A stretch of 11,554 nt of DNA from Dehalococcoidia bacterium (lineage in GTDB: Bacteria > Chloroflexota > Dehalococcoidia > SZUA-161), in assembly GCA_030619685.1 (NCBI GenBank), contig JAUXAX010000065.1:1-11554 (forward strand). The letters run 5' to 3'. Each line of letters opens with the position of its first letter. The stretch's first letter is position 1. This document shows positions 3,012 to 10,016 of the stretch, one piece after another. The notes beneath the pieces were generated by a model that saw only the letters and a program-made list of their open reading frames with translations, made no database searches and was not told the origin of the DNA. Made by a program: the position numbers and the translations under genes.

Positions 3012-3737
3012 TTATCTCTTTACAGCTTTGAGTATGATGTCAGCACTGAGAAGAGGTAGCCACCATCTACGGTATTCAGCGAATACTCCAGAACCCGATC
3101 TCTGAACCACCTGAAACCCCTGCTCTTCGAGCAGTTTCGTAAGGGCTTCGAACGTGAAATAGTGCAAGTGTCCTGCATCCCAGGAGCCTCTACAGTGATG
3201 GGTTGAGGTTATTGGAAGTTTCCCAAACAGTAAACTCAGCCTATATGGCAACCAAGCTGTGTTGGGAACGTTTATGATCAGGATTCCCTCTTTTCTCAAC
3301 AATCGGTGGAACTCCGAAATCACGTGGTATGGGTCAAATAGGTGCTCAAGCACTGCCACACAAGTAATGGCATCAAAAGAAGCCTCTTTGAAAGGCGCCT
3401 GCAGGTCCAAGTTGGCCAGCATTAAGTATGTCTTGGCAAGACCCATATGATTTGTATTTATCTTGATCTGCGCTTTGCATACTGCACTTAATGCGATGTC
3501 GATGCCGTACACTTCCTCAAACTCTTCCAGGGCCCTCCACACTAACGAGCCATCTCCGCAGCCCACATCCAATAGTTTCTCTCCATAAGGAAGTAATTCA
3601 AAGACCGCCTCACCTCCCGACTTTTCAAAGCGCCGCAGCCTCAGAAAGAGGTAACCTAAAATGCCATGGGGCTTAATCTGATCCCAATCATCTCGATGCG
3701 TCTTTTCATAGAACTGCCTTTTGTACTGCTCCGGCAA
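3012..3737 (-). CDS. Class I SAM-dependent methyltransferase
   Basis: A 241-residue cytosolic methyltransferase that probably methylates a sugar or glycan intermediate of this locus; the substrate is unknown. The Rossmann-fold motifs are clear: motif I LLDVGCGDGS (55-64) for SAM, the acidic end of strand 2 in VYGID (76-80), the post-II/IV region FDAITCVAVLEHLFDP (121-136), and LLRKEGILIINVPN (146-159). A C-terminal AGHLHYFTFEALTKLLEEQG (188-207) is typical of methyltransferases in glycan clusters. The start is TTG at 3737 with AAGGGGG about 6 nt upstream. This start overlaps the end of the preceding GT4 frame by 82 nt. A later start would remove FYEKTHRDDWD, which looks like genuine N-terminal sequence. 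Confidence 0.9.
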   Translation of the reverse strand: MPEQYKRQFYEKTHRDDWDQIKPHGILGYLFLRLRRFEKSGGEAVFELLPYGEKLLDVGCGDGSLVWRALEEFEEVYGIDIALSAVCKAQIKINTNHMGLAKTYLMLANLDLQAPFKEASFDAITCVAVLEHLFDPYHVISEFHRLLRKEGILIINVPNTAWLPYRLSLLFGKLPITSTHHCRGSWDAGHLHYFTFEALTKLLEEQGFQVVQRSGSGVFAEYRRWWLPLLSADIILKAVKR

Positions 3738-4914
3738 TCCATGCCCCCTTTTGTCGTCTTGGACTTCCTGTGTACAGTTCTTACGCCAGAGGCCTGGTAG
3801 ATGTTAGTATATCTTTCGGTTATATTGTTCCAGTTGTAGTCCCTTTGTACGATATTCCGTATTGATTCTCCCATCTGTCTCCAAGCGTTGATATCAAAAA
3901 GCTCGTGCACTGCCGACGCTATCATCTCTGGCTCTTCGTTAATTAGGAATCCGGTTTCTCCATCTACAACGATCTCATTGGCAACACCCACCGGCGTGGA
4001 TATCACAGGCAAGCTAGCCGCAGCGGCCTCCAAAATGGTTTGCCCGAAGCTCTCGTATTTTGAGGTGTAGATGAAAATGTCACATTTGTTGTAATATTGC
4101 AACAGCTCTTGTCCATACACTGGACCCACAGACGTCACCTTGCCTTCCACGCCCCATTCTAATGCTGAACGCTTCAATTCGTCCAGATACTCGCCCTTCA
4201 ACAAGCCGCTGCTCCTCATCTCTCCACCCACGATAAAAAGCCCGACCCCTTTCACGTAGTTTAGAGCCCGCAATATGGGCTCTAGATTTCTGTTCCGTGA
4301 GATGCGGCCGACAAAGAGCAATCTTAACTCATCATGAGGTTCCCCATGCCTGGGCTGATATGACTCGATGTCAATCCCCACGGGTACAAGCCTTACTTTG
4401 GCTCTCGGGATGCCAAAGGCTGTGGCTTCTTATATTCTTGCCTTGATGAGACAACAACCGCGTCGGCCCTTCGAGCGCTGCTTTTTAGCGTCAGCAGATC
4501 ATAGGCAACATATGGTAGCGAGTACAGAGGATTCTTCAAAATGTAACGATATGACAACAGTGTGCCGTGGGTGTTAATGACAAAGGGCTTTCCTTTGGTC
4601 TTTGCCGCTAGAAACCCAAGATCAGACTGAAAGCTTCGGTAGCTGTGGCTATGGATAATGTCGAAGTCCTTAAGATGGGAAAGCATCCCCAAACTCACGC
4701 AGTAGCGCATGACCCTCAACTGGTTCTTGAATCACTTGACGTGGACGCTCTCGAACCTGTCCTCGCTCGGAAGAGAACCTTCGACGTCGAGATACGTGGT
4801 GAGAATGGGCGATCTGATACCCCTCTTTTCGAGCTCAGAGGAGATCCTGAAGGCCTGGTTCATCGGGCCTGTGACGGATGGATAGAAACACTCGATCGTT
4901 CTTAAGATGTTCAT
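3656..4914 (-). pseudogene. GT4 glycosyltransferase broken by a nonsense codon and a frameshift
   Basis: GT-B fold, retaining family 4 glycosyltransferase. The ATG at 4914 starts MNILRTIECFYPSVTGPMNQ, 14 nt after the WbbL-like gene and just after GGGGAGG. The frame runs to an in-frame TGA at 4734-4732 inside HVK-stop-FKNQLRVMRY; CGA to TGA is the simplest origin. It continues through FDIIHSHSYRSF and KPFVINTHGTLLSY to SSRQEYKK, where the frame is lost near 4424-4432. Adding one base there gives EYKEATAFGIPRAKVRLVPV, which joins GIDIESYQPRHGE. The C-terminal half keeps LLFVGRISRNRNLEPIL, YESFGQTILEAAAASLPVIS (the EX7E signature) and VVDGETGFLI. Without the lesions it would encode about 420 residues. 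The last roughly 27 residues run past the methyltransferase start. Unless both lesions are sequencing errors, no full protein is made. Confidence 0.85.
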
Positions 4915-4928
4915 GGCCTCCCCATTGA

Positions 4929-5969
4929 TTACTCGGTAAACACCAACTGCCACGGACTAAGCTGATATCTCTTGAACCATTCCGCTATCTCCGCCTCTGA
5001 TACCCGTTTCTTCGCCTGTATCTTACGCCTCTTTCTCAGCATCCGTGGGATCCCCCAGGCAGCCGCCAGGTAGGGTTTCACCAAGATTAACGCCCCTTCT
5101 ACTGCTGAGGCGCCCTTGAGAAATTGGCCAACACTCCCACGAGGGGCTAGAGCTGCATATAGTTGAAGACAATGCCTCCACAGGGCGTAAAGGGGAACCA
5201 GGAGCAGTATCCTCACTGGAAAGTTCTTCAGTGCCACCCAGAGGTGATTCCGCTCCACTGAAAAGGCCTTCAACGGGCTATAGCCGCCCGCGTAACCAGA
5301 ATAGTGATGGTAGACGACGGCTGACGGCGCTAGCACTGCTTTCCAGCCAGCGAGACGCCCTCGTAGTCCTAGATCAACATCCTCGCAATAAGCAAAGAAA
5401 TCCTCATCAAGGAGACCAACTTCATCTAGCATTTCCTTGCGGTACAGCGCTGCGCAACCGCTTGGCAGAAGAATCTCTTGCACCTCATCGTATTGGCCCA
5501 CATCTTTTTCGAGCCAGCCCCTCATCCTTGCCATACCGTCTGGATAGATAGCAAGACCAACAGACTCGATCAAAGAGGGATCCCGCAGGGACAGTATCTT
5601 TGGTGCACACATGCCTATCTCAGCGCTGGACTCCGCCACTTCTACGAGCGCCTTTAGCCAATTGCTGTCAACTCTGGTATCGTGGTTGATGATAGCAACG
5701 TACTTCCCTTCAGCAACCAGAATCCCTCGGTTGATCCCAGCGAAGCCCAGATTGGTTTCGTTCTTAATTATGCTTGCCCCAGGAAACCTGCTTTCAATAA
5801 AGCTGACGGAGTCATCAGTCGAGGCATTGTCCACGAGGATTATCTCGTAATCTGGGTAAGTCTGAGCCTGAAGTGAGGAGAGACAGGCTTCAAGGAAATG
5901 TCTGCCATTCCGATCAATGACTACAACCGAGGCATGGGGCCAGTCCAACGGCTTTAGTCCCCCTTTCAC
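4929..5969 (-). CDS. WbbL-like GT2 glycosyltransferase
   Basis: Inverting GT-A family 2 glycosyltransferase of 346 residues, resembling rhamnosyltransferase-type (WbbL/RfbF-like) enzymes that extend lipid-linked glycans from nucleotide sugars. Motifs are SVVVIDRNGRHFLEACLSSL (14-33), ILVDNASTDDSV (44-55), NLGFAGINRG (73-82), the DxD-region NHDTRVDSNWL (95-105), LPSGCAALYRKEML (168-181) and the acceptor-site ED-type motif FAYCEDVDLGLRG (192-204). A hydrophobic stretch at about 253-264 and a basic tail suggest membrane association. Two positions look unusual: family members commonly have a Trp in the first-strand xNWNG motif where this has DRNG, and NPDT where this has NHDT. The start is GTG at 5969, overlapping the asnB stop as GTGA, which suggests translational coupling. 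A TTG at residue 8, with GGGGG upstream, is an alternative. The sugar specificity cannot be read from the sequence. Confidence 0.9.
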   Translation of the reverse strand: MKGGLKPLDWPHASVVVIDRNGRHFLEACLSSLQAQTYPDYEIILVDNASTDDSVSFIESRFPGASIIKNETNLGFAGINRGILVAEGKYVAIINHDTRVDSNWLKALVEVAESSAEIGMCAPKILSLRDPSLIESVGLAIYPDGMARMRGWLEKDVGQYDEVQEILLPSGCAALYRKEMLDEVGLLDEDFFAYCEDVDLGLRGRLAGWKAVLAPSAVVYHHYSGYAGGYSPLKAFSVERNHLWVALKNFPVRILLLVPLYALWRHCLQLYAALAPRGSVGQFLKGASAVEGALILVKPYLAAAWGIPRMLRKRRKIQAKKRVSEAEIAEWFKRYQLSPWQLVFTE

Positions 5970-7900
5970 TGATCCATAAAACCCCTATGCCACAATTCAA
6001 AATTCAATAGCAGCCATAGCTGGGAGTCATAAACCTCTTTCCCGGAGTCGTGTAGCTTGTATAGCTTCTCGATATAATCGAAATCGAAATAGCCCCTGCT
6101 TCTGGTTCTCTCGTCCATCAGTATTTCGAACACGAAATCCTTCAGCTCGCCGCGAAACCAGGGGTCGGTGGGCACGGCGAAACCGTGTTTTCTTTTCCTC
6201 AAAACGCTTTTGGGCAGCAGTCGCCTCATGGCTTTCTTCAGGATGTACTTGGTTGTCAATCCGTTGATTTTGTAACGTGACGGCATCTGGGCAGCGAATT
6301 CCACCAACTGGTGATCCAGGAAGGGCACCCTGGCCTCTAAACCAACGGCCATGCTTGCCTTGTCGGTCTTCTCCAGGTAGGTGTCGGGTAGCCAGGTCTT
6401 CAGGTCAGTGTACATTAGCTTACCGAGGAGGTCAAGGCTGCCGTTTCTATTGTAATAGCGTCGGTACACCTCGAAGGAATCGTATCGCCGGGTCAACTCC
6501 TGCACCTGGGCGGAGAAGAGTTCCATTTTCATCTCATCGTCAAAAACCGTGAGCCAGGAGCCGTATCTGACGTCAGGGGAGGGAACGGACATGGCGCTTA
6601 CAGCTTTCTTGAGCCTCCTGAACCGCGGCAGGCTGTGCACCGCTTTGGCGACAACCTTCTCTCTCAGAAAGAGAGGGAGGCTTTGATATAACGGCGATAA
6701 CCTCTCCGCCAAGTAGCGGCGGTAGCCGCCGAAGATCTCATCGCCGCCCTCGCCGGTGAGGGCTACTTTGACATAGTCTCGGGCAAACTTGGAGACGAGA
6801 TAGGTAGGGAAACAAGCAGCATCCCCAAAGGGCTCATCGTACTGGTAGACCAATTTCTGCAGCGCGTCAACGAGCTCGCTGGACTTAACCCTTAGTTCAT
6901 GGTGATCCGTCTTGAAGTATTCGGCCACCAGCCTGGCATCGTCCAGCTCGCTGTAGGCCCCGCCGATCTCGAAGCCCACGGAGAAGGTCTTGACTGGCTG
7001 ATCCATCAGCGTGCTCATCAGGCCCACTACGGTGCTGGAATCAATTCCCCCGCTCAGGAAGGCCCCAAGGGGCACGTCGCTCACCAACCGGTAGCGCACG
7101 GAATCCTGCAAAAGCTCGTAGACCCTGTCGGCATACCCGGCCTCGGTAAGCGACTCTGCTGCTTCATTCCCCTGCCCCTCATCTGGATATAGGTCCCAGT
7201 ACTCTTTGACCTGAATCTCCCCATTGTCACACCTGAGATAATGCCCAGGAAGGAGCTTCTTTATCCCCTGATAGATCGTATCGGGCGCAACGGCGTGGCC
7301 GTAGGTGAAGAAGTTATTCAGCCCCTTGTAGTTGATTTGGCGGGGGACGCTGCTATCTGCCAGGATAGCCTTGATCTCCGAGGCGAAGATGAGCCGCCTT
7401 CCATCGAGATAGTAGTAGAGCGGTTTGATGCCCAACCGGTCGCGGGCGAGAAACAACCTCGGCGACTTGCCACCCGCCGTCGGTCGTCGGTCGTATATGG
7501 CGAAGGCGAACATGCCGGTGAGCCTGTGGACACATTCGATCCCATATTCCTCGTAGGCGTGGACGATCACCTCGGGGTCGCTGGCAGTAGAGAAGCGATG
7601 CCCTCTGGCCTTGAGCGCGCCCATCAGTTCGCGATAATTGTAGATTTCCCCGTTGTGGACGACCCAGACAGACCCATCGCTTCGACCTTGCTCAGCACAA
7701 GCCTCATTGCTCATCGGCTGGTGGCCGGTGGCTAAGTCAATGATGCTAAGGCGCCGGTTGCCTAAGCCGATGTTCCCATCAGTGTATATCCCCTCATCGT
7801 CGGGGCCCCGGTGACCGATCGCATCGCACATCCTTTGGAGCAGTTGCTCTTGGACGGGCTGATTGTCGCGGAAGTTGTATACACCGCAGATGCCGCACAT
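5966..7900 (-). CDS. asnB: Asparagine synthetase (glutamine-hydrolysing), AsnB type
   Basis: A 644-residue two-domain amidotransferase. The N-terminal class II glutaminase starts at Cys2 (MCGICGVYNF) and shows RGPDDEGIY (31-39), RRLSIIDLATGHQPM (49-63) and NGEIYNYREL (83-92). The C-terminal synthetase has the PP-loop SGGIDSS (283-289), YQYDEPFGD (352-360), LTGEGGDEIFGGYRRY (381-396), DKASMAVGLEARVPFLDH (513-530) and KHGFAVP (571-577). The chemistry is ATP-dependent amidation by glutamine-derived ammonia. In glycan clusters such paralogs often amidate sugar acids rather than aspartate, so its target here is open. ATG at 7900 has AGGA 7 nt upstream. Two extra peptides interrupt conserved blocks: ACAEQGRS at 67-74, between MSNE and DGSVW, and about PTAGGKSP at 140-147, between YDRR and RLFLARDR. 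Both are encoded by repeat-like DNA. All key residues I can identify remain. Confidence 0.95.
   Translation of the reverse strand: MCGICGVYNFRDNQPVQEQLLQRMCDAIGHRGPDDEGIYTDGNIGLGNRRLSIIDLATGHQPMSNEACAEQGRSDGSVWVVHNGEIYNYRELMGALKARGHRFSTASDPEVIVHAYEEYGIECVHRLTGMFAFAIYDRRPTAGGKSPRLFLARDRLGIKPLYYYLDGRRLIFASEIKAILADSSVPRQINYKGLNNFFTYGHAVAPDTIYQGIKKLLPGHYLRCDNGEIQVKEYWDLYPDEGQGNEAAESLTEAGYADRVYELLQDSVRYRLVSDVPLGAFLSGGIDSSTVVGLMSTLMDQPVKTFSVGFEIGGAYSELDDARLVAEYFKTDHHELRVKSSELVDALQKLVYQYDEPFGDAACFPTYLVSKFARDYVKVALTGEGGDEIFGGYRRYLAERLSPLYQSLPLFLREKVVAKAVHSLPRFRRLKKAVSAMSVPSPDVRYGSWLTVFDDEMKMELFSAQVQELTRRYDSFEVYRRYYNRNGSLDLLGKLMYTDLKTWLPDTYLEKTDKASMAVGLEARVPFLDHQLVEFAAQMPSRYKINGLTTKYILKKAMRRLLPKSVLRKRKHGFAVPTDPWFRGELKDFVFEILMDERTRSRGYFDFDYIEKLYKLHDSGKEVYDSQLWLLLNFELWHRGFMDQ
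7478..7494. repeat. 7-bp tandem repeat CGTCGGT inside asnB
   Basis: CGTCGGT occurs at 7478-7484 and 7485-7491, followed by CGT. On the coding strand it encodes part of YDRRPTA (136-142). It accompanies an apparent expansion of about 8 residues (PTAGGKSP) between the conserved YDRR and RLFLARDRLG blocks. Confidence 0.6.
7679..7704 (-). repeat. Dispersed CTTGTxCTGAGC repeat inserted in frame in asnB
   Basis: On the coding strand the core GGCTTGTGCTGAGC followed by AAGGTCGAAGC matches the GGCTTGTCCTGAGC word at 8528-8541 in 13 of 14 positions. It also resembles the repeat at 985-1009 on the same strand. The 24 nt at 7679-7702 encode ACAEQGRS, which interrupts the normally contiguous MSNE-DGSVW of AsnB. 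Confidence 0.7.
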
Positions 7901-7991
7901 GTCTATTTCCTGGGAGTCTGGATAAAATCTATAGAAAGTGCATTCGTCATTGAGAGTAGATATTGGGACGCAGACGAACGCAGATGACGCA

Positions 7992-8008
7992 GATGCCGCT
8001 TCGCTTAC
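7992..8008 (-). repeat. Third copy of the CCGCTTCGCTTAC repeat, inside another repeat
   Basis: GATGCCGCTTCGCTTAC matches the 2137-2153 copy in the DPM-like GT2 at 16 of 17 positions. It sits between the two arms (7966-7991 and 8017-8046) of the CGCAGAT-type palindrome, where it looks inserted. Confidence 0.65.
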
Positions 8009-8045
8009 TGTTAGTTATCAGCGTGAATCAACGTTAATCTGCCTC

Positions 8046-8453
8046 CTATGAACCAGCAAGCCAGTGCATAGATCCTTTGCGGGAGTTATCGAATGCCCTG
8101 CGCTTGATCTCAGGCTTGGGGCCAAAGTTGAGTAACAGGCCAACCTCGTAGGGTGTGGCTTTCAGGCAGTTGAGTAACTGTGCCTCGTGTTCTGACAACA
8201 ATCTTTTCACAGCTTTCAACTCGACGATCACAGCGCCAGCCACCAACAAGTCAGGAAAGTACTCGCCTACCACTTCGCCGTCGTAATAGACTGTGATCCG
8301 TGCTTCTTGGATCACGTCCAGCCCCAGCTTGCGTAGTTCGATTGCCAGTGCGTTCCTGTAAACCTTTTCCAGGAAGCCATAACCAAGCGTGTTATAGATT
8401 GTGTAGAATGCCTTGATGATCAACTCTGTTATGTCAGTATGCTTGAAGCTCAA
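8046..8453 (-). CDS. GxxExxY-family protein (PD-(D/E)xK-like fold)
   Basis: A 135-residue protein with the family's name motif in LGYGFLEKVYRNALAIELRK: Gly, Glu and Tyr at the GxxExxY spacing (25-31). The C-terminal half has VYYDGEVVGEYFPDLLVAGAVIVELKAV, where D, E and the LKA lysine resemble a PD-(D/E)xK nuclease core, then LLSEHEAQLLNCLKA and GLLLNFG. The family's biochemical role is not established to my knowledge; a nuclease-like or nucleic-acid-related function is inference from the motif. The start is TTG at 8453, with a strong GGAGGAG (8464-8458) leaving 4 nt to the start. No ATG fits, because the motif follows about 24 residues later. The stop is TAG at 8048-8046. It sits between two glycan genes but has no obvious link to glycans, and it is enclosed by repeat arms, so it looks like a passenger. 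Confidence 0.9.
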   Translation of the reverse strand: MSFKHTDITELIIKAFYTIYNTLGYGFLEKVYRNALAIELRKLGLDVIQEARITVYYDGEVVGEYFPDLLVAGAVIVELKAVKRLLSEHEAQLLNCLKATPYEVGLLLNFGPKPEIKRRAFDNSRKGSMHWLAGS

Positions 8454-8468
8454 AGTACTCCTCCGCCC
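8454..8468 (-). promoter_or_regulatory. Strong Shine-Dalgarno fixing a TTG start
   Basis: Minus-strand GCGGAGGAGTACT precedes the TTG at 8453. GGAGG (8464-8460) leaves 6 nt to the start. This supports TTG as the initiator of the GxxExxY gene. Confidence 0.7.
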
Positions 8469-8524
8469 AAGAGAAAAAGATCAGCGTGTATCTGCGTTAA
8501 TCTGCGTCCAATTTCCCTATTGAG

Positions 8525-8595
8525 AAGGGCTTGTCCTGAGCCATGTCCTGAGCACTTTGTCCCTGGGACACAGTACCAGGGGCTTGCCGAAGGGT
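8525..8595 (+). repeat. Dispersed CTTGTCCTGAGC..TTGCCGAAGGG repeat
   Basis: Between the cassette and the end of the membrane-protein gene, GGCTTGTCCTGAGC (8528-8541) is followed 12 bp later by a second GTCCTGAG (8545-8552), and the stretch ends with CTTGCCGAAGGG (8583-8594). A CCCTGG/CCAGGG mini-hairpin lies between them. It belongs to the same family as 985-1009 and the in-frame copy in asnB. Confidence 0.6.
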
Positions 8596-8633: not shown

Positions 8634-10016
8634 TTATTCCAAATCCGTTGTAGTATTGTGGCCAAGGACACGGGCTATGCCCACACTGGCGAAAAGGAGG
8701 AAAAACACCCAGACCTGAGTTCTATGCCGATAAGCGGCCCCCAAATTCCCTATGGCCAGGGCATCCAACAATGTAAAAACGATGGTAAAGGTGAGAATAG
8801 GGGCGATTTCAGCTAGTCGTTTTCTGACGGCACTCAGCATGCCGAGCACGGTGAACGGAATCAAAGCATACCAGATAAACATCTCGGGAATGGTCATCAT
8901 GCCAGAATAGCTTGTCACTCTCTCCCATGGAAAGGGGCGCAGGAGGTAGTGAGTTAACGCCTCTGGCATGAAGAGCAACAGGTCCTTCCAAGAGTTAAGG
9001 GTAGGAACAGAGAGCCTCGCGGTATCCAGTGAGCCCCCCAGCCGAAAGTGGAGTGCTCCTCTAATTATCGTATCCAGTTGGTACTGCAGATGGGTGAGAA
9101 TGGAGTGGGTCTGTTCTCCAGCGGGCCAAGCGCTCCCCACCAGTGACTGTATGGGAGACACCCCGGTTTCCTTCAGAACCAAGAAATCTAGTAGCCAAAG
9201 CGAAATCAACCCGCCCAAGGCGAGAAGCCGCCTTCTAGACGACTTCATGATCAAAGGAATGGACAAGATCAATGATGCCACTAGCCCGTTAAATGTTGAT
9301 GACCGAAGCATCCACAGCATCCAGAGAGAAGATACTATGGCCAATGGATATTTCCACTTCCACCCTCTGCGTATACCATTGATGCCGAGCATGCTCAGGC
9401 AGAGAAAGAAGACTATCAAGGTGTCTCTCAGGTTCTGGGTAGACCAGAAAATTAACGAAGGGAAAAAGGCTGTTAGTACCGAGGCGATGCTGGCGACCCG
9501 CCTGCCGAAGATAGGCTTGGCAATGAAGTACATGCAGATGCTGGTTAGTATCCCGAAGAAGCAATTGACTATCTTGACCGATAAGGGACTATAACCAACT
9601 ACGAAGAATATGATGGCATTCATATTAACGTATGCATTATGGGCCAGAGACGGCTGCTGAAGTGTCTCGCCCTTCCAAAACCTGGCCAAATGCCAGCCTT
9701 GCCCTGCATATCGACCTGCATCCATCTCCGGCACAATTGGGAAATAGTGAAGAAAGACCGCGAGCAACGCCCTTAGGCAAAATCCCAGGATAAAAAGGGC
9801 CAGCAAGAACTCCCGGTCTTGAGGCTCTGTCCTCGTCAGTATGAGCGATCCAACAAGCAACATCCCAAACAAGGCGATGATCCCGGCAACCGAGGTCTCT
9901 GGCGGAAGCCACACAGCCAGGAACCCCATAGCGGTGGCAACAACCAGCCCCAGGGATATTTGCACTGTTGAACGACTTATCGTGAGTCGAGCCCAATAAC
10001 TAATCCGCTGTGCCAT
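8634..10016 (-). CDS. Polytopic membrane protein, GT39/GT-C-like
   Basis: A 460-residue inner-membrane protein with about ten or more hydrophobic segments (for example 18-36, 43-60, 70-90, 132-165, 175-190, 198-212, 225-255, 265-282, 378-396 and 404-447). An early periplasmic-type loop has VPEMDAGRYAGQGWHL (95-110), whose acidic residue is where GT-C enzymes place catalytic Asp. GRRVASIASVLTAFFPS (171-187) followed by STQNLRDTLIVFFL resembles the GT39 core. Later ALTHYLLRPFPWE (353-365) and GNLGAAYRHRTQ (423-434) are conserved-looking loops. Likely role: transfer of a sugar from a polyprenyl-phosphate donor, or another membrane step in glycan assembly. A polymerase or ligase-like role is not excluded. 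ATG at 10016 has AGGAGG 11 nt upstream. Confidence 0.8.
   Translation of the reverse strand: MAQRISYWARLTISRSTVQISLGLVVATAMGFLAVWLPPETSVAGIIALFGMLLVGSLILTRTEPQDREFLLALFILGFCLRALLAVFLHYFPIVPEMDAGRYAGQGWHLARFWKGETLQQPSLAHNAYVNMNAIIFFVVGYSPLSVKIVNCFFGILTSICMYFIAKPIFGRRVASIASVLTAFFPSLIFWSTQNLRDTLIVFFLCLSMLGINGIRRGWKWKYPLAIVSSLWMLWMLRSSTFNGLVASLILSIPLIMKSSRRRLLALGGLISLWLLDFLVLKETGVSPIQSLVGSAWPAGEQTHSILTHLQYQLDTIIRGALHFRLGGSLDTARLSVPTLNSWKDLLLFMPEALTHYLLRPFPWERVTSYSGMMTIPEMFIWYALIPFTVLGMLSAVRKRLAEIAPILTFTIVFTLLDALAIGNLGAAYRHRTQVWVFFLLFASVGIARVLGHNTTTDLE

Follow-up and report, generated by a model that had tools for sequence, protein, structure and literature searches.

A short gene of the GxxExxY family, enclosed by inverted repeats, lies between asnB and a membrane-protein gene in a Chloroflexota genome (Dehalococcoidia bacterium, assembly GCA_030619685.1, contig JAUXAX010000065.1), raising the question of whether gene and repeats form a single mobile unit and, if so, which enzyme moves it. 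Literature searches found no published role for the GxxExxY family, a search on PDDEXK_3 gave no papers, and published mentions of GxxExxY do not, in the parts available to us, speak of such repeats. An earlier note on this DNA had proposed a minimal non-autonomous cassette with the repeats as its substrate. Taking the whole 11,554-nt stretch (hereafter the window) together with loci and genomes from many bacterial groups, we describe a finding that is real and larger than that note supposed.

Structure of the element

The GxxExxY gene (8046..8453, minus strand) encodes 135 aa from a TTG start, downstream of a putative Shine-Dalgarno sequence, GGAGGAG (8464–8458, minus strand), and is co-directional with both of its neighbours, asnB (5966–7900, minus strand) and the membrane gene (8634–10016, minus strand). 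Its 5′ arm (8480..8513, minus strand) is built of the words CGCAGAT, CGCAGAT and CGCTGAT at 10-bp spacing and has TTGGAC as its outer end, while the outer 3′ arm (7964..7995, plus strand), inverted relative to the first, has TGGGAC. The arms are complementary at 18 of 20 positions (7966–7985 and 8490–8509); they, the gene's own Shine-Dalgarno sequence and TTG start, and its place between asnB and the membrane gene are as the earlier note had described them. That note had also seen a direct copy of the right end abutting the stop codon, which is present over a different extent: 28 of 33 positions are identical over 33 nt between 8480–8512 and 8017–8049, instead of 26 of 30.

This second arm copy (8017..8049, minus strand) has the same direction as the 5′ arm and contains the TAG stop of the gene. 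Because it pairs with the inverted arm 7964–7995, the element consists of half a hairpin, the gene and a whole hairpin. The complete post-gene hairpin is made of arm copy, loop and inverted arm (7964..8049, minus strand); folded as single-stranded DNA, the stretch 7960–8052 gave −16.4 kcal/mol (z −2.8). The gene's stop codon sits near the start of this hairpin, which looks like one of the gene-less units described below. By comparison with other elements, the whole element would be delimited by TNGRAC at 7964..8511 (minus strand). With up to three mismatches, CGCAGATNNACGCAGAT matches the window 8 times against 0.26 expected, a count reached in none of 200 shuffles, and the element contains five of these eight matches.

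Another type of repeat, made of TCCTGAGC and GCCGAAGG words, adjoins the element at 8516–8595 and recurs at about 980–1005; in the opposite direction it reads GCTCAGG/CCTTCGGC. Elsewhere in the window, a glycosyltransferase-like region (3656–4953, minus strand) is broken into three successive frames in a frameshift-like manner.

The GxxExxY protein

The window protein matches TIGR04256 (E 4.6e-38, 130.2 bits, curated cut-off 35) and PF13366, PDDEXK_3 (E 1.8e-39, 135.1 bits, curated cut-off 22), and PDDEXK_3/GxxExxY is all that was found in the element, which contains no transposase of a known family. The residues E, D, ExK and Q, which are those of a PD-(D/E)xK active site, are invariant across 39 sequences, and the predicted structure (pLDDT 92.6) has a restriction-endonuclease-like, nuclease fold; a solved structure sought by sequence gave a best E of only 0.14. 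By conserved residues, profile and predicted fold, we assign GxxExxY to the PD-(D/E)xK nuclease superfamily. Among Spirosoma copies, dN/dS was 0.03–0.13 in four distinct computable pairs, in all of which dS is high, pointing to strong purifying selection. The label non-autonomous given by the earlier note is therefore not supported, because the unit carries a putative nuclease with a conserved active site; the non-autonomous members are likelier to be the gene-less short copies.

Up to 13 copies of the gene per genome occurred among 26 genomes selected for carrying it, and nine near-full-length Spirosoma copies, counted by eye, have an in-frame stop. In total, 7,997 GxxExxY candidates were scored, every one at E ≤ 0.001. 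The family was found in 0 of 50,697 phage records and 8 of 72,556 plasmid records, and neither PADLOC nor PHROGs gave a match; a phage or defence role was rejected on the absence of matches in phage records, PADLOC and PHROGs. Some frames of about 270–316 aa have two GxxExxY domains and some Chloroflexota frames of 528–571 aa have one (G004, G006 and G019; G149, G166, G182, G183, G190 and G278); these frames possibly have other functions.

Inverted arms as a family trait

Arms of this type are common around GxxExxY genes and are not so around two other small-gene families. A scan by protein only yielded 80 loci, drawn from a wide range of bacteria and from a single archaeon; 79 were testable (L073 was too short), making 80 elements with the window. 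Of the 79 protein-chosen loci, 49 gave a best inverted flank match scoring at least 30 (50/80 once the window is added); among control positions lying 0.8–2.4 kb away the figure was 2 of 273. A score of at least 35 was reached at 40/80 with the window, against 0/273. The set was then enlarged with copies from 26 of the genomes: 164 frames in the fetched loci were reduced to 140 by leaving out identical copies, to 127 that were nearly full length and to 126 with enough flank. Strong arms surrounded 82 of these 126 genes, against 1 of 178 controls, and were not detected around the other 44. A few members of this larger set came from loci fetched by arm pattern, whereas the 79 loci had been chosen independently of arms. 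As a control in the same genomes, Uma2, likewise a family of small nucleases with multiple copies, had strong arms at 2 of the 28 loci used out of 30. The word CRCNGAT occurred on both sides of 74/127 GxxExxY genes, against 1/25 four-helix-bundle genes, 0/28 Uma2 genes and 2/186 control positions. Arms of the kind that the earlier note proposed to look for are thus present around the majority of GxxExxY genes studied, and these genes come from very different bacteria. As in the window, complete hairpins adjoin the gene at several loci, either on one side or on both.

The spacing between successive words is 10 bp in 121 cases and 9 bp in 59, and this regular interval of about one helix turn suggests that a protein binds along a single face of the DNA. 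In all 38 TNGRAC elements the variable GRAC base is equal at both ends (shuffle mean 21.5, maximum 32), while the N outside it agrees at chance level (12 vs 13.4); the outer limit of the element is therefore marked there. With looser end patterns, under which inner words are picked up too, agreement fell to 31 of 52 cases, and one conflict was noted besides. The arm type, GGAC or GAAC, tracks the protein tree (8 changes vs 19 when shuffled), but 63 of 1000 within-phylum shuffles were equally low, so that the signal is mostly lineage; the CGC/CAC variant hardly follows the tree (11 vs 13.0). Co-evolution of protein and arms beyond lineage is suggestive at most. Among elements between co-directional neighbours, 71 of 78 lie in sense, most plausibly because selection favours copies that are expressed from host operons.

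In the 5′ arms of three loci (L021, L068 and L070), a different palindrome of the CCCCGTTA..TAACGGGG type is inserted between two words.

Empty sites, other sites and derivatives

In two genera, the same site is occupied in some relatives and empty in others. We also found elements with matching ends elsewhere, one copy whose gene is deleted, and short palindromes. The Flavobacterium element of locus L077 lies between two co-directional genes, the one after the site encoding what we take to be a UDP-GlcNAc 2-epimerase. In five relatives (L213, L215, L216, L217 and L219), the distances separating the aligned flanks are, in ascending order, 23, 28, 40, 43 and 147 bp, and there is no GxxExxY frame. 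Two others (L212 and L214) have different GxxExxY-like genes with other arms there (E 1e-30 and 4e-29 with an in-house profile), and in L218 an unrelated gene fills the site; in all, the site is vacant in five relatives and occupied in four, three times by a GxxExxY-type insert, each of them different, and once by another gene.

In Spirosoma, G016 and G334 carry the element of locus L042, whereas G349 and G329 lack it and have 10 and 56 bp, respectively, between the flanks; the same copy is kept in two species (L042 and L232). Elements with matching ends and different flanks occur in G344, G330, G015 and G022, the left end being short in the last, as the forward alignment begins inside it. At locus L246 of G349, the element retains both its ends, but its gene has lost the core and is left with the first 21 matched residues. 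From 35 Spirosoma loci picked by similarity to L042 or by arm pattern, with 12 giving no end pair and L249 set aside as not being an arm, we obtained 23 paired-end elements of 68–291 bp with common ends, L246 included. All 23 have ends of the NRGAMC type, as imposed by the finding rule, mostly TAGAAC, and there was no GTAG-only end. A target duplication of at least 2 bp directly at the ends was found in 0 of the 23; across phyla, 38 elements showed no excess of duplications at 2, 4 or 5 bp, and 3 vs 1.3 at 3 bp.

The empty site that the earlier note had hoped for was hence found in relatives within these two genera and not at the site of the window itself; a search of 400 Chloroflexota genomes gave no close relative.

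Palindromic target sites were considered and rejected; the excess of mirror pairing (99 vs 82.1, reached in 8 of 2000 shuffles) was modest and mainly due to two loci, L352 and L364. At these, a Spirosoma hairpin seems to have been inserted precisely in the middle of a palindrome that was there before, with mirror flanks of 12 and 6 bp.

Arms without the gene

An arm pattern of 20 bases was found in 15 of the 26 gene-bearing genomes, with up to 130 matches, and the backward pattern in none; tandem words can yield overlapping matches. The earlier note had named arms occurring mostly without the gene as evidence against its proposal, and part of what we found is of this kind: pattern matches and GxxExxY genes number 130 vs 3 in G007 and 64 vs 2 in G009, and 25 of 30 loci fetched by the pattern have no GxxExxY frame and contain short hairpins and single arms. 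We read this abundance of arms relative to genes as an element with many miniature derivatives.

Among 201 Chloroflexota genomes, the pattern occurred in 18 of 41 with the gene against 6 of 160 without it (p 6e-10), and the reversed pattern gave one match across all 201. Leaving out G198, G238 and G236, whose matches are otherwise explained or lie in regular tandem arrays, the figures become 16/39 vs 5/159 (p 2.8e-9). With a genus-specific pattern, 36 Spirosoma genomes showed no association of arms and gene (17/29 with a gene over the cut-off, 3/7 without); one of them, G359, which has no gene over the cut-off, contains a broken gene remnant and 15 pattern matches.

In G238 (L264–L277) and G198 (L292–L297), the CGCAGAT hairpin lies inside a MITE of about 117–131 bp with CTAG-type ends. 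Both ends were found in 10 of 21 loci, with exact 8-bp target duplications in seven of the ten (four in G238, three in G198), and the amplification in these two genomes is therefore not the work of GxxExxY. We accordingly rejected their many copies as proof of GxxExxY-driven spread, since the CTAG-ended MITE carries them.

A second family of genes within hairpins

All but one of the same 26 genomes contain genes of the S23 four-helix-bundle family (TIGR02436), in up to 18 copies. Inverted arms made of other words surround them, with a score of at least 30 in 16 of 25 cases against 1 of 48 (25 of 30 loci used, five with cut flanks being left out). Outside rRNA (L141–L170, in G002–G026), these genes are often surrounded by inverted arms in which 7-bp words, of many kinds, stand in tandem, and the arms show a clear 7-bp period (identity 0.42 and 0.38 at lags 7 and 14, vs 0.26–0.30 at other lags from 3 to 13). 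A pattern of TCAGC words, compared with its reverse in 16 genomes, gave 267 vs 8 matches in G004, 31 vs 0 in G002 and 11 vs 1 in G005, with no excess in the remaining ones save 2 vs 0 in G003. The rRNA element of Coxiella combines heptamer repeats with inverted ends of 28 bp (PMC4990558). Because the S23 arms and this element share the architecture, a general class of gene-in-hairpin elements is plausible.

Proposed mechanism and competing explanations

We consider it reasonably likely that the window element belongs to a widespread family of small mobile elements of the chromosome, each of about 0.5 kb, in which the putative nuclease GxxExxY acts on the arms. GxxExxY would recognise the arm words, or the cruciform that they can form, and cut at the arms, moving or copying its own element in cis and short hairpins in trans; movement would proceed without target duplication, and copies may survive where they are oriented in sense within an operon and hence read from a host promoter. 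A DDE transposase is made less likely by the lack of target duplication and by the palindromic arms, which together favour a cut-and-repair or single-strand route, as in REP/RAYT systems. No movement was observed. Against this reading stand the predominance of arms that lack the gene, the Chloroflexota arms in gene-less genomes (6/160), the arm–gene non-association in Spirosoma and the MITE-borne spread in G198 and G238, as do the 44 of 126 genes for which strong arms were not detected, the mostly lineage-based fit of arm type to protein tree and the weaker agreement of looser end patterns (31/52).

The main doubt is whether the nuclease or another enzyme moves the hairpins. If the hairpins were the mobile unit of another enzyme, with GxxExxY a passenger caught between two of them, one could account for arm matches exceeding genes by tens to one in some genomes, for the gene-less majority of arm-chosen loci (25/30) and the arms of some gene-less genomes, for the whole hairpins beside the gene at several loci, the window included, and for the hairpins carried inside another MITE. 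We judge this unlikely, because this type of word goes specifically with GxxExxY genes (74/127, against 1/25 and 0/28 in the other two families) and no carrier transposase was seen between arms. The latter test is weak: among 45 loci, only four had convergent arm pairs 300–2600 bp apart, and the longest frames read at these four presumably encode host enzymes or nothing.

An element acting at the RNA level, as in 23S rRNA intervening sequences, whose transcript arms would pair so that RNase III excises the gene and insertion into an operon is harmless, appears improbable. The sense orientation (71/78), the same arm architecture in S23-type genes, where G.U-type mismatches are slightly commoner (25 vs 17), and the Coxiella element fit it. 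In GxxExxY arms, however, G.U-type mismatches are not preferred (102 vs 133 of A.C type), on which ground an RNA stem as the selected feature was rejected; the window has no Rfam match anywhere and therefore no rRNA, and the gene-less hairpins are dispersed as DNA. We give equally little credence to a host-useful nuclease, serving defence or DNA repair, whose arms would merely be local repeats recombining the gene between sites. Such a role agrees with the very low dN/dS, the retention of one copy in two Spirosoma species and the near absence from phages and plasmids, but neither PADLOC nor PHROGs matched it, and the many copies per genome (up to 13), the nine stop-bearing copies and the gene-deleted copy with both ends are habits of mobile DNA.

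A broader proposal, which we hold to be somewhat less likely than not, is that GxxExxY would be the mobilising enzyme of a new autonomous class of genes in tandem-word hairpins, specific for word or structure, moving its own arms and gene-less copies without target duplication; S23 with its 7-bp-word arms would be a second, independent family, and rRNA intervening sequences the rRNA-dwelling tip of a far larger multi-phylum group. Apart from this proposal, the findings give a family of thousands a testable role, would account for the CGCAGAT-type repeats seen across many bacterial groups, and link the question of the nature and mobility of rRNA intervening sequences to tractable relatives outside rRNA.

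Comparison with known systems

Six arm strings of 16–17 letters were not found in the literature searched, and such arms go unreported in the titles and abstracts on intervening sequences, four-helix bundles, REPIN/RAYT, recombination-promoting nucleases and miniature repeats. Rpn proteins have a PD-(D/E)xK fold and form a family different from GxxExxY. These recombination-promoting nucleases (YhgA-like) are found in Pfam as transposase_31 (PMC5350276; PMC10327210).

RNase III excision is known for 23S rRNA intervening sequences. These elements are called selfish in a published account that treats their mobility only as a hypothesis (PMC4990558). Like GxxExxY elements, they hold a small gene (S23/TIGR02436) within inverted ends, with tandem heptamers in Coxiella, but they lie in rRNA and encode another protein fold, whereas GxxExxY elements were seen between protein genes.

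The Spirosoma series, in which a full element, a copy with an internal deletion and short palindromes all share their ends, resembles a MITE with its parent insertion sequence, and the terminal inverted repeats and internally deleted relatives by which such pairs are recognised are both present; in contrast, the full GxxExxY element has neither a target duplication that could be found nor a transposase of a known family. REP/REPIN palindromes with their RAYT (TnpA-REP) are similar in that a low-copy gene is flanked by palindromes that are also dispersed without it. RAYT is an HUH tyrosine transposase (PMC3733652), a type that neither the profiles nor the predicted structure of GxxExxY matched, GxxExxY being a PD-(D/E)xK nuclease by sequence and predicted fold. 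REPs have a GTAG tag, whereas GxxExxY elements have TNGRAC ends, tandem 9–10 bp words and, as paired-end elements, a length of at least 68 bp. CGTC-tagged REPs are dispersed palindromes for which that study reported no dedicated transposase, with Bacteroidetes among their hosts (PMC3733652); with stems of 8–9 bp, loops of 4–5 bp and the CGTC tag, they are far shorter than GxxExxY elements. The best reading is thus of a REP/RAYT-like or MITE-like system, but one equipped with an unrelated, putative PD-(D/E)xK nuclease.
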